NCBI GenBank assembly: GCA_003052455.1
Contig: QAPD01000028.1
Location: 1-64,000 of the forward strand
Direction: 5' to 3'
DNA: 64,000 nucleotides
Source: Sphaerisporangium cinnabarinum
GTDB lineage: Bacteria > Actinomycetota > Actinomycetes > Actinomycetales > Cellulomonadaceae
Part shown: one piece after another, positions 15,838-49,928 of the stretch
Layout of the letters: the number at the start of each line of letters is the position of its first letter
How positions within the stretch are numbered: the first letter of the stretch is position 1
Notes under the pieces: model-generated
The model's database searches: none
The model's input: the letters and a program-made list of their open reading frames with translations, nothing else
What the model was told of the DNA's origin: nothing
Program-made: the position numbers and the translations under genes

Positions 15838-16653
15838 TCAGACGCGCACGTACTCGAGGTCGGTGATGACGCGCCCCGCGGCCTCGCCCTTGCGCTCGAA
15901 CCCGGTGAGCACCCGGCCCTCGAAGCGCGGCGCGACGTTCCCCGGCCCGTGCGCGTTGCGCAGCCCCGGCGCGGCGTCCAGGACCTCGAGCATCTGGTCC
16001 GCGTACTCGGCCCAGTCGGTGGCGAGCCGCAGCGTCCCGCCGGGACGGGCGTCGTCGCCCTCCCCCGGCGCGCGCAGGACGCGCTCGGCCAGTGCCGCGA
16101 ACGACGGCGTCACGAGGCGGCGCTTGTGGTGGCGGGACTTGTGCCAGGGGTCGGGGAAGAACACCCAGAGCTCGTCGACGCTCCCCGCGGGCAGGGTGGT
16201 GGCGAGGACCTCGGCCGCGTTCGCCTGGACGAGCCGCACGTTCGTCAGGTCGCGCTGCGACGCGCGCAGCACGGTCTGCGCCAGCCCGGGCGCGTACACC
16301 TCGACGGCGAGGAAGTCCGTGCCCGGCTCGCGCTCGGCGGCGGCGACGACGGCCTCGCCCTGGCCCGAGCCGATCTCGACGACCAGGCGCGCGTCGCGCC
16401 CGAAGGTGGCCGCGACGTCGAGCACGTGGTCCGGGTCCACCGACGTCCGCGCGACGTCGCGCGGCACGTCGACGACGTAGCGGTCGCGGTACGCGTCCCA
16501 CGCGCGCTGCTGGCGCGGCGCGAGGCGGCCGCTGCGCTGCACGAACGACACGGGCTGGGTGCGGTAGCGCGGGCGGGCGTCGCCGGTCCCCGGGGTCGCG
16601 GAGGGGGCGCCGGTCACGGGCTCGTCGAGGGTGTCGGGGGTCGGTTCGGGCAC
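15838..16653 (-). CDS. trmB: tRNA (guanine-N7)-methyltransferase
   Basis: A 271-residue class I SAM methyltransferase that makes m7G46 in tRNA. LVVEIGSGQGEAVVAAAE is the SAM-binding motif, EVYAPGLAQ follows, and the catalytic block ELWVFFPDPWHKSRHHKRRLV is diagnostic (PDPWHKxRHxKRR). The N-terminal 45 residues are a poorly conserved extension common in actinobacteria. The GTG at 16653 is 6 nt from a TACCCT -10 box, so the transcript is probably leaderless. Confidence 0.95.
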   Translation of the reverse strand: MPEPTPDTLDEPVTGAPSATPGTGDARPRYRTQPVSFVQRSGRLAPRQQRAWDAYRDRYVVDVPRDVARTSVDPDHVLDVAATFGRDARLVVEIGSGQGEAVVAAAEREPGTDFLAVEVYAPGLAQTVLRASQRDLTNVRLVQANAAEVLATTLPAGSVDELWVFFPDPWHKSRHHKRRLVTPSFAALAERVLRAPGEGDDARPGGTLRLATDWAEYADQMLEVLDAAPGLRNAHGPGNVAPRFEGRVLTGFERKGEAAGRVITDLEYVRV

Positions 16654-16710: not shown

Positions 16711-18030
16711 TCACACGTACGCCGCGTACGCGGGCAGGTCGAGCACGCCGTTGCCCGACAGCCCGAGGACGATCACCTCGGGCTCCGTCGCCGCGCGCGC
16801 GTGCGCGACCGCCGCCGCGACGGCGTGCGTCGACTCGGGGGCGGGGATGATGCCCTCGCTGCGCGCGAACAGGGTCCCGGCCGTGAACGCCTCGTCCTGG
16901 TCGACGGCGACGGCGTCCATGAGCCCGAGGTGGACCGCGTGCGACACCATCGGCGACATGCCGTGGTAGCGCAGGCCGCCCGCGTGGATCGCGGGCGGGA
17001 CGAAGTCCTTGCCGAGCGTGTGCATCTTGAGCAGCGGCGTGAGGCCCGCGACGTCGCCGAAGTCGTAGCGGTACTCGCCCTGGGTGAGCGACGGGCACGC
17101 GGCCGGCTCGCACGCGACGAGCCGCGTCGTCGTGCCCTCGCGCAGGTTGCGGCCCAGGAACGGGAACGTCAGGCCCGCGAGGTTCGACCCGCCGCCCGCG
17201 CAGCCGAACACCACGTCCGGCGCGCCCTCGCCGGCCTCGTCGAGCTGGACGAGCGCCTCCTGGCCGATGACGCTCTGGTGCAGCATGACGTGGTTGAGCA
17301 CGCTGCCCAGCGCGTAGTGCGCCGCGGGGTCCTTCGCGGCCGTCTCGACGGCCTCGCTGATCGCCATGCCGAGCGAGCCGGTCGTCTCGGGGTCCGCGGC
17401 GAGCATCGCTCGCCCGGCCTCCGTGAGGTCCGACGGCGACGGGTGGCAGATCCCGCCGTAGACCTCCATCTGGGCGCGCCGGTACGGCTTGGAGTCGTAC
17501 GACGCGCGCACCTGCCACACCTCGACGTCGAGCCCGAGCAGCGCTCCCGCGAACGACAGCGAGGCGCCCCACTGGCCCGCGCCGGTCTCGGTCGTCAGCC
17601 TCGTCGTGCCCTCGAGCGCGTTGTAGTACGCCTGCGCGACGGCGGTGTTCGGCTTGTGCGAGCCGACCGGGCTCACGCCCTCGTACTTGTAGTAGATCCG
17701 GGCCGGGGTGCCCAGGGCCCGCTCGAGACGCCGCGCCCGCACGAGCGGGGACGGCCGCCACAGCGCGTAGATCTCGCGGATCGTCTGCGGGATCTCGACG
17801 TAGCGCTCCGTCGTCACCTCCTGCTGCACGAGCGCGAGCGGGAAGAGCGGCGCGAGGTCGTCGGGCGTGAGCGGCTCGCGCGTGCCCGGGTGCAGGTGCG
17901 GGGGCACCGGCTCGGGGAGGTCGGCCGCGAGGTTGTACCAGTGCGTCGGGACGGTCGAGGGCACCTCGGCGCCCGTCGGCTCGAGGGACCGGACGGGCAG
18001 GGCCGTCGGCGGGGTCTGCTGTGTCGTCAT
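16711..18030 (-). CDS. trpB2: TrpB2-type tryptophan synthase beta chain
   Basis: A 439-residue PLP enzyme of the TrpB2 (TIGR01415) group, which condenses indole with serine (or phosphoserine) and is usually not coupled to TrpA. The PLP Lys is in [29 protein letters not shown] is the substrate loop with its Glu, and [17 protein letters not shown] is the phosphate-binding glycine loop. The N-terminal [18 protein letters not shown] is characteristic of TrpB2 and absent from TrpB1. No other trp gene is next to it. The ATG at 18030 gives the normal family length; an in-frame GTG at 18129 would add 33 residues but lies inside the leader hairpins. A leader peptide with two Trp codons precedes it. 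Confidence 0.92.
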
Positions 18031-18150
18031 GCTCGGCTCCAGCTCAGGGGACGGCCGCTGGGCCGACGACGCGCGCACCGGGTTCACCGAGGCCGCCCAC
18101 GTCGTCGGTGCACGGCCGGATGAGGTCACCGGCCGTCAGGCGGCCGGCCA
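18031..18150 (-). promoter_or_regulatory. Probable tryptophan attenuator leader of trpB2
   Basis: Three short segments can pair in exclusive ways on the minus strand: segment 1 CCGGCCG at 18141-18147 (right after the two Trp codons), segment 2 CGGCCGG at 18129-18135, segment 3 CCGGCCG at 18113-18119. 1:2 closes a 5-nt loop, 2:3 a 9-nt loop. Further down CCGACGACG and CGTCGTCGG can form a 9-bp stem before the trpB2 ATG, and GCACCG/CGGTGC offers a partner for the region after segment 3. A ribosome waiting on the Trp codons would cover segment 1 and leave 2:3 to form. No U-tract is seen, so transcriptional versus translational control is open. Confidence 0.6.
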
Positions 18151-18177
18151 CCAGGGGGTCACGGACGGGTGCGTCAC
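18136..18177 (-). CDS. trpL: trp leader peptide with tandem Trp codons (13 residues)
   Basis: Minus-strand frame GTG to TGA reading MTHPSVTPWWPAA. Two adjacent TGG codons (18148-18153) stand two-thirds along, as in trp leader peptides of enteric bacteria and actinobacteria. It starts 7 nt after a TAGGGT -10 box, so it should be translated from a leaderless mRNA. The stop is followed immediately by the competing hairpins and 105 nt later by the trpB2 start. In a proteome where Trp is rare, WW in a 13-codon frame in this position is unlikely by chance. Confidence 0.7.
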   Translation of the reverse strand: MTHPSVTPWWPAA

Positions 18178-18184
18178 GGGGCCG

Positions 18185-18190
18185 ACCCTA
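18185..18190 (-). promoter_or_regulatory. -10 box of the trpL-trpB2 transcript
   Basis: TAGGGT on the minus strand, 7 nt before the GTG of the leader peptide. No TTGACA-like -35 is apparent. The remaining bases up to the divergent SDR gene at 18324 show nothing recognisable except that gene's ribosome binding site. Confidence 0.55.
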
Positions 18191-18323
18191 CCCCCGCGCG
18201 CCCGCTCGGGACCACCGGCGCCCGGGCGAGGACGATCGGCTCTCGCGCGCGCGGGTGCGCGGGCGCTGGGATGGGAGCAGACGCCGGACGACGGCAGGCC
18301 GGCGCGGACGGAAGGGAGCCGTC

Positions 18324-19085
18324 ATGGTCAGCAACCACGTCCCGGGCAGGTTCGAGGGCCGCACGGCGATCGTCACCGGCGCGGGAGCCGGCATCGGCCG
18401 CGCGACGGTCGAGCGGCTGCTCGCGGAGGGCGCACGCGTCGTCGCCACCGACGTCCGGGAGGACCGCCTCGACAAGCTCGTCGCCGACGTCGGCACGGAC
18501 GCGCTCGTGACCGTCGCGGGCGACGTGAGCGCCCAGACCACGATCGACGCGGTGGTCGCCGCCGCGGGCGGCCGGGTGGACGCCCTCGCCAACGTCGCCG
18601 GGATCATGGACGGCTTCCTGCCGACCGCCGAGGTCGACGACGCGACGTGGGACCTCGTCATGACCGTCAACGTCACCGCGGTCATGCGCCTCACGCGCGC
18701 GGTCCTGCCCCTCATGCTCGAGGCGGGGAAGGGCTCGATCGTCAACGTCGGGTCGGAGGCGGGCTCGCGCGCGTCGGCGTCGGGCACCGCGTACGCGACG
18801 TCGAAGCACGCGGTCGTCGGCTTCACGAAGAGCACCGCGTTCTTCTACACGCCCCGCGGCGTGCGGGCGAACGTCGTGGCGCCCGGGGCCGTCGCGACGA
18901 GCATCGAGGCGCCCTTCCGCTCGCAGTACGCGGGCGAGCGGCTCGGACCGGTCATGGCGACGACGGTCCCGCCGGCCGCGAGCGCCGACGAGCTGGCCGC
19001 GGCGATCACGTGGCTCCTGTCGGACGACTCGGCCAACGTCTCGGGCGCCGTCCTGCACAGCGACGGCGGGTGGGCCGCCGTCTGA
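18324..19085 (+). CDS. Short-chain dehydrogenase/reductase
   Basis: A 253-residue classical SDR. TGAGAGIG (about residues 17-24) binds the nicotinamide nucleotide, TDVREDR at the end of beta-2 has the Asp that favours NAD(H), NVAG is the structural motif, and the catalytic triad is Ser in VGSEAGS with YATSK. Substrate loop residues give no clear specificity; alcohols, sugars or 3-oxoacyl groups are possible. GAAGGGAG is 6 nt before the ATG. It is transcribed away from the trpB2 leader and ends before a strong terminator. Confidence 0.88.
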   Translation: MVSNHVPGRFEGRTAIVTGAGAGIGRATVERLLAEGARVVATDVREDRLDKLVADVGTDALVTVAGDVSAQTTIDAVVAAAGGRVDALANVAGIMDGFLPTAEVDDATWDLVMTVNVTAVMRLTRAVLPLMLEAGKGSIVNVGSEAGSRASASGTAYATSKHAVVGFTKSTAFFYTPRGVRANVVAPGAVATSIEAPFRSQYAGERLGPVMATTVPPAASADELAAAITWLLSDDSANVSGAVLHSDGGWAAV

Positions 19086-49497: not shown

Positions 49498-49564
49498 CCG
49501 CGACCGGGTGCTGGTACGACGACGGCCCGCACCCCGGGAGGGGTGCGGGCCGTCGCCGCAGGGG

Positions 49565-49928
49565 TGGAGGTGCGGGGAATCGAACCCCGGTCCGGTGACG
49601 CCGATCGAGGACTTCTCCGGGCGCAGTCTGCTGTCGTTTTTCTCGGCCCCCGCACTCACGCAGACAAGATGCGGACGGGCTCAGTCACCTGAAAGTCCCC
49701 GCAGCCCCGGTGACGAGGACTGCGAGCAGTGGCTCTCTAGATGACGCCAGGATCCGAGTCGAGAGCTAGCTCGGGCTGACGGACTTCGGGGCTCGCTCAG
49801 GCGGCGAGGGCGAAGTCGGTGCGCTTGTTATCGGCACCTGTGTTTTGCAGACATCGTTTACGAGATAAGCCTGCATCCTCGGCCCGCTTCTCCTCGAAGC
49901 ACGACCACCGTCGAAACCGATCACCCCC
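49565..49928 (-). ncRNA. ssrA: Transfer-messenger RNA
   Basis: The minus strand starts GGGGGTGATCGGTTTCGACG, the universal tmRNA 5' end, and finishes GGGGTTCGATTCCCCGC plus CACCTCC, which pairs with the 5' GGGGGTG as acceptor stem. The resume frame at 49797-49835 encodes ADNKRTDFALAA and a stop, with the required ALAA end. Several pseudoknot segments follow. A73 is followed by CCC, so CCA is added. smpB lies 680 bp upstream on the same strand. TAGGCT at 49989-49994 is a candidate -10 box about 60 bp before the mature end. Confidence 0.96.

Follow-up and report, generated by a model that had tools for sequence, protein, structure and literature searches.

A 13-codon reading frame with two adjacent tryptophan codons, together with four mutually exclusive RNA segments, was found upstream of the stand-alone trpB2 gene, and it is likely that a ribosome-mediated attenuator reading these Trp codons controls trpB2 separately from the trp operon. 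The window is the whole analysed stretch of 64,000 nucleotides (positions 1 to 64,000 of contig QAPD01000028.1, assembly GCA_003052455.1, Sphaerisporangium cinnabarinum), and all features given with coordinates below are on its minus strand. At the level of sequence, the comparison established the frame, the Trp codons, the spacing, the four mutually exclusive segments, their co-variation, and the restriction of the element to trpB2.

In the window, a -10-like box TAGGGT (18185..18190) was located 7 nt ahead of a GTG codon (18177-18175), a spacing that leaves zero 5' UTR space. The frame opened by this GTG (18136..18177) consists of 13 codons reading VTHPSVTPWWPAA (18177-18139, codon 1 being GTG) and a TGA stop (18138-18136), and contains the tandem Trp codons TGG TGG (18153-18148). 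Three 7-nt segments were identified, segment 1 CCGGCCG (18141..18147), segment 2 CGGCCGG (18129..18135), and segment 3 CCGGCCG (18113..18119), which allow either 1:2 or 2:3 pairing. The box with its spacing, the frame with its two adjacent Trp codons, and the three segments had all been described in an initial annotation made from the sequence, and each was recovered in place. A fourth segment overlooked there, GGGCGGCC (18091..18098), pairs with segment 3 to give a 3:4 hairpin (18084..18123; -21.1 kcal/mol, z -2.27), although one mismatch versus segment 3 is present in the window itself; the shape of this hairpin is common to three genera. The 9-bp stem that the initial annotation had placed before the trpB2 start (CCGACGACG at 18108-18100 with CGTCGTCGG at 18071-18063) was also present, but it is nested in a longer hairpin (18052..18118), because segment 3 also pairs with CGGCCG at 18057-18052 around it; this structure is limited to the genus of the window and is not the hairpin shared by three genera. 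GGAG (18037..18040) is the likely ribosome-binding site of trpB2, judging from its sequence. An upstream trpB2 start at GTG 18129 was dismissed because the leader lengths differ by non-multiples of 3.

When the 294 nt upstream of trpB2 were dinucleotide-shuffled 20,000 times, a WW frame of up to 20 codons with TANNNT 5-8 nt ahead was never obtained, and any short WW frame appeared in 64. No Rfam family, including Trp leaders and T-boxes, matched the leader site at its gathering score, and the only match there at E ≤ 5 was a miRNA family (E 3.5). An intrinsic terminator with a U-run, formed as segment 3:4, was not detected in a scan of 17900-18400 in the window, and inspection by eye of the other leaders revealed no U-run terminator.

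The downstream gene (16711..18030, ATG at 18030) encodes a TrpB-like PLP enzyme of 439 aa. Its product scored above the cutoffs of NF009057 (698.8 bits, cutoff 366) and TIGR01415 (586.1, cutoff 518.85) and far below that of the ordinary-trpB model TIGR00263 (139.9, cutoff 392.45), which agrees with its earlier assignment to the TrpB2 kind. The closest solved structures by sequence were 6hul_B, 6hte_B, and 4qys_B. The ordinary trp cluster (trpE, trpC, trpB1, and trpA) was encoded on another contig of the same genome, so that trpB2 lies outside it. Just behind trpB2, the window contains trmB for tRNA guanosine-46 methyltransferase (15838-16653), which adjoins trpB2 in the searched loci of the window's genus and of g15 (see below) and was not found at the Sanguibacter locus. 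The window also carries an ordinary tmRNA gene (49562-49928) and, elsewhere, four ordinary tRNA genes.

Of the 17 genomes of the window's genus (hereinafter g1), 10 encode TrpB2, as do 87 of the 221 genomes of the family. Upstream DNA was examined at 86 of the 87 family loci, one (G102) being dropped as cut at a contig end. The leader was found at 19 of these 86 loci, namely 10/10 in g1, 7/7 in g15, which is probably Oerskovia, and 2/2 in g22, which is Sanguibacter; the same leaders were identified in records of Oerskovia rustica, Oerskovia turbata, and Sanguibacter gelidistatuariae. All 19 are of equal length (13 codons), end in WWPxx, and have a -10-like box ahead (TAGGGT, TATGGT, or TATGCT). 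The box lies 6-7 nt from the GTG at every locus, a spacing consistent with the leaderless frame before trpB2 proposed in the initial annotation. The leader peptides of the three genera read VTHPSVT(P/L/S)WWP(A/T)A, VNLLTAHTWWPD(H/R), and VITHS(A/V)RLWWPTR, with WWP at the identical position in each and the remaining residues varying between genera; two genera use the stop codon TGA, the third TAA. At the ten g1 loci, frame and stop were invariant in 37 of 42 columns versus 12 of 42 at -55 to -14, and the corresponding values in g15 were 40/42 and 16/42. Loss of the frame or of the pairing in relatives had been named beforehand as evidence that would speak against the element, and both were found to be kept in three genera. 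A chance origin was rejected, as the element recurs in two genera besides that of the window. Conservation caused by a divergent plus-strand SDR gene was likewise rejected: within flanks of 1.5-2 kb, this gene was found at 4 of 23 loci searched, all four in g1, and was absent from the searched leader-bearing loci of the other genera.

None of the 67 other family loci carried a WW frame of up to 20 codons, with or without the box, in the 294 nt upstream of trpB2. When the search was widened to about 700 nt, longer WW frames appeared at two of them (L039 and L087), both lacking the spacing. Outside the family, no WW frame was detected at 20 examined loci of 29 matches in the order, one of which (L207) had just 87 nt upstream. 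Among 80 named loci, the leader was found in three (two Oerskovia and one Sanguibacter), and two further loci (L116 and L137) had other WW frames. At L137, from a Chromatiaceae MAG, the region about 264 to 190 nt ahead of the trpB2 match contains a short frame ending in WW and a GC-rich hairpin followed by nine T; this arrangement is possibly a classical attenuator on trpB2. It was not retained as an independent case, being found in its own genome only among 30 loci examined of 85 matches in 146 genomes of its group, several of these 30 being truncated at contig ends and at least three incorrectly placed. In a tree of 40 TrpB2 proteins (including one outlier, L099, with a broken frame), leader-bearing rows fell in three places and well-supported branches forced at least two changes; either an early origin with frequent losses or more than one gain of the leader would account for this.

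The four segments have the cores CCGRCC (1), GGYCGG (2), GRCC (3), and GGYC (4), in which R/Y is G/C in g1 and A/U in g15 and g22. The same position co-varies in all four segments, keeping the 1:2, 2:3, and 3:4 pairings. Over the 19 loci, 127 Watson-Crick pairs and 4 unpaired cells were counted for 1:2, 119 Watson-Crick, 7 G-U, and 1 unpaired for 2:3, and 148 Watson-Crick, 2 G-U, and 2 unpaired for 3:4; the register for these counts was set by hand, as MAFFT does not align the 3' arms of the different genera correctly. Mismatches were located in the window (L001; 3:4), in L006, L012, and L013 (1:2), and in L011 (all three helices). When arms were swapped between genera, a pair was lost in some combinations and became G-U in others. 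The four-segment co-variation derives from few events. Folding gave 3:4 hairpins of similar shape for the window, L003, L014, and L068 (free energies between -19.2 and -21.1 kcal/mol, z between -1.61 and -2.79). For the whole four-segment stretch, z was -3.37 (window), -0.81 (L014), and -1.94 (L068), and the longer hairpin, for which segment 3 of g1 has the alternative partner CGGCCG (or CGGCC) near trpB2, gave -1.02 in the window (18031-18124) and -2.70 in L003; single-sequence z-scores of this kind are modest.

In the proposed mechanism, the transcript would begin at the GTG of the leader. With charged tRNA-Trp in short supply, the ribosome would stall at the two UGG codons and cover segment 1 only; segment 2 could then pair with segment 3, the 3:4 hairpin would be blocked, and trpB2 would be expressed. 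When tryptophan is plentiful, the ribosome would get to the stop codon and cover segment 2, leaving segment 3 free for the 3:4 hairpin (in g1 also for the longer one), and expression would fall. Most likely, transcription would be cut off by a stop that needs no U-run or that is assisted by Rho.

Segments 1 and 2 correspond to nt 31-38 and 43-49 of the leader. A ribosome with Trp codon 9 or 10 in its A site shields the RNA up to about nt 37-40, and one at the leader stop up to about nt 52. In constrained folding with the RNA blocked to nt 40, the probability of 2:3 pairing was 0.45-1.00 at 10/10 g1 loci, 0.00-0.97 at the seven g15 loci (three of them ≤0.16), and 0.00 at both g22 loci. A block at the leader stop makes 2:3 impossible by construction. 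Part of segment 3 lies outside the 3:4 helix, which caps the measure for 3:4 at about 0.57 (g1 and g15) or 0.67 (g22). Under this block, the measure was 0.00-0.53 in g1 (≤0.04 at 6/10 loci), 0.43-0.52 and near the ceiling at 7/7 loci in g15, and 0.66 and 0.19 in g22; in g1, other structures such as the longer hairpin competed with 3:4. The equilibrium model would support the 2:3 side of the switch in g1 and the 3:4 side in g15, and it fails on 2:3 in g22.

Points weighing against an attenuator are the lack of a U-run, the 2:3 values of g15 and g22, the 3:4 values of g1, the mismatches, the few events behind the co-variation, and the modest z-scores. The reading as trp attenuation put forward in the initial annotation was supported in part, by the Trp-codon frame, the pairing, and the conservation; it was weakened by the lack of a U-run terminator and by constrained folding that agrees with it in part.

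The same sensor might instead work by translational attenuation, in which stalling alters access to the ribosome-binding site of trpB2 and no transcript ends early. This possibility is the less probable of the two, yet a serious one: it accommodates the lack of a U-run terminator, and the leaderless Cys leaders of Mycobacterium smegmatis are so described (cited in PMC13236596). On the other hand, constrained folding of the 19 loci with a stalled or a finished ribosome revealed no consistent change in pairing of the trpB2 start region, and the 3:4 hairpin stops short of the start codon. A second alternative, in which a repressor binds the repeats as its DNA operator and the frame has no role of its own, is very unlikely. 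In its favour, the segments form GC-rich palindromes near a promoter box, and a DNA palindrome would show co-varying bases too. Against it, the length, start, WW codons, and stop of the frame were kept at 19/19 loci though other residues differ, and the stop switches from TGA to TAA. Equally improbable is a translated frame that merely feeds ribosomes to trpB2 by reinitiation or coupling and senses no tryptophan. Small leaderless frames before genes are common in mycobacteria (PMC4633059), which favours it, but the 99-214 nt from leader stop to trpB2 match start are long for coupling and it is the Trp codons and pairing segments that the three genera share.

Whether the Trp-codon attenuator occurs at other genes was addressed with R1, a search model derived from the leader sequences. 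Because its structure is the RNAalifold choice, which differs from the one proposed above, R1 behaves largely as a sequence profile; filters were stricter whenever more than 40 genomes were searched. In the 221 family genomes, R1 retrieved exactly the 19 leaders at E ≤ 1.6e-9, and a search of 396 genomes from the order gave just three matches passing E 0.001, each a known leader. Weaker matches in four genomes (G176, G059, G136, and G209; E 3e-4 to 2e-3) were taken as chance, that in G176 lying within long open frames and the other three being judged by alignments only. No comparable leader was found within 500 nt upstream of trpE in the 30 genomes with a trpE match (32 searched); the only WW frame near trpE, in G209, was 446 nt before the match and had no properly placed -10 box. 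In the 18 kb around the trp cluster of the window genome, the sole fitting WW frame was antisense to a long frame and was discarded. In the genomes tested, the Trp leader is therefore located at trpB2 and not immediately upstream of trpE, the other trp genes being covered by the model only.

At 45 of the 67 leader-free loci, a -10-like box was detected no more than 110 nt from the point where the trpB2 match begins, a count without a shuffle control. At one of them (L027), trpB2 itself seems leaderless, with TAGGGT, 7 nt, and ATG about 25 to 6 nt before the match, a box and spacing equal to those ahead of the leader frame in the window. In the leader-bearing genera, the leader would stand between promoter and trpB2.

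The role of TrpB2 beside ordinary trpB is disputed. An activity as serine deaminase was proposed and then found to be poor (PMC1854888), and indole salvage by TrpB2 was reported for an archaeon (cited in PMC11085991). A reader of charged tRNA-Trp before trpB2, absent at trpE in the same genomes, would link the enzyme to tryptophan supply and make the question of its role directly testable. On sequence grounds, the kept leader suggests that the cell makes TrpB2 when tryptophan is short. We lean slightly toward the further view that attenuation acts on the stand-alone TrpB2 instead of on the trp operon. TrpB2 would then be a separately switched synthase (for scavenged indole, for example), turned on when tRNA-Trp is uncharged, by a device free of a U-run. 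If true, this would tie a debated enzyme to tryptophan supply in this lineage and would be another case of attenuation without a U-run.

The trp attenuator of Escherichia coli controls the whole trp operon, its frame is leadered, and it uses a U-run terminator. The trpB2 element resembles it in having four segments with 1:2 plus 3:4 set against 2:3, tandem Trp codons just before the end of segment 1, and the stop codon between segments 1 and 2. Among Actinobacteria, Trp attenuators have been predicted before the trp operons of Corynebacterium and Streptomyces and before trpS (PMC1262725), and those predictions share with the present element tandem UGG codons and complementary GC-rich triples; they differ in having poly-U terminators and trp operons, whereas here the gene is a stand-alone TrpB2 gene. 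An attenuator was also predicted before a Corynebacterium diphtheriae operon written trpB2A (PMC1262725), in which the gene so named shares the operon with trpA. The leaderless polycysteine leaders of mycobacteria, for which candidates are given in PMC4633059, are similar in combining a short frame, tandem codons of the regulated amino acid, and a metabolic gene, but the amino acid is cysteine and they are described as translation attenuation. Among the matches listed in a literature search, no paper described a Trp leader before a stand-alone trpB2, as judged by title or start of abstract. The leaderless Trp leader peptide singled out in the initial annotation was already known, as two such leaders of Streptomyces lividans have been mapped by RNA-seq, trpL1 before trpE, with three Trp codons and a U-enriched stretch, and trpL2 before trpS, with 13 codons, one Trp codon, two hairpins, and no U-rich stretch (PMC8079986). 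Like trpL2, the present element is an actinobacterial leaderless Trp leader of 13 codons without a U-rich stretch; unlike it, the frame has two Trp codons, and the target is trpB2 instead of trpS or trpE. The kind of leader is therefore known, and what is new is the target gene, which is added to those of the leaderless Trp leaders of Actinobacteria.
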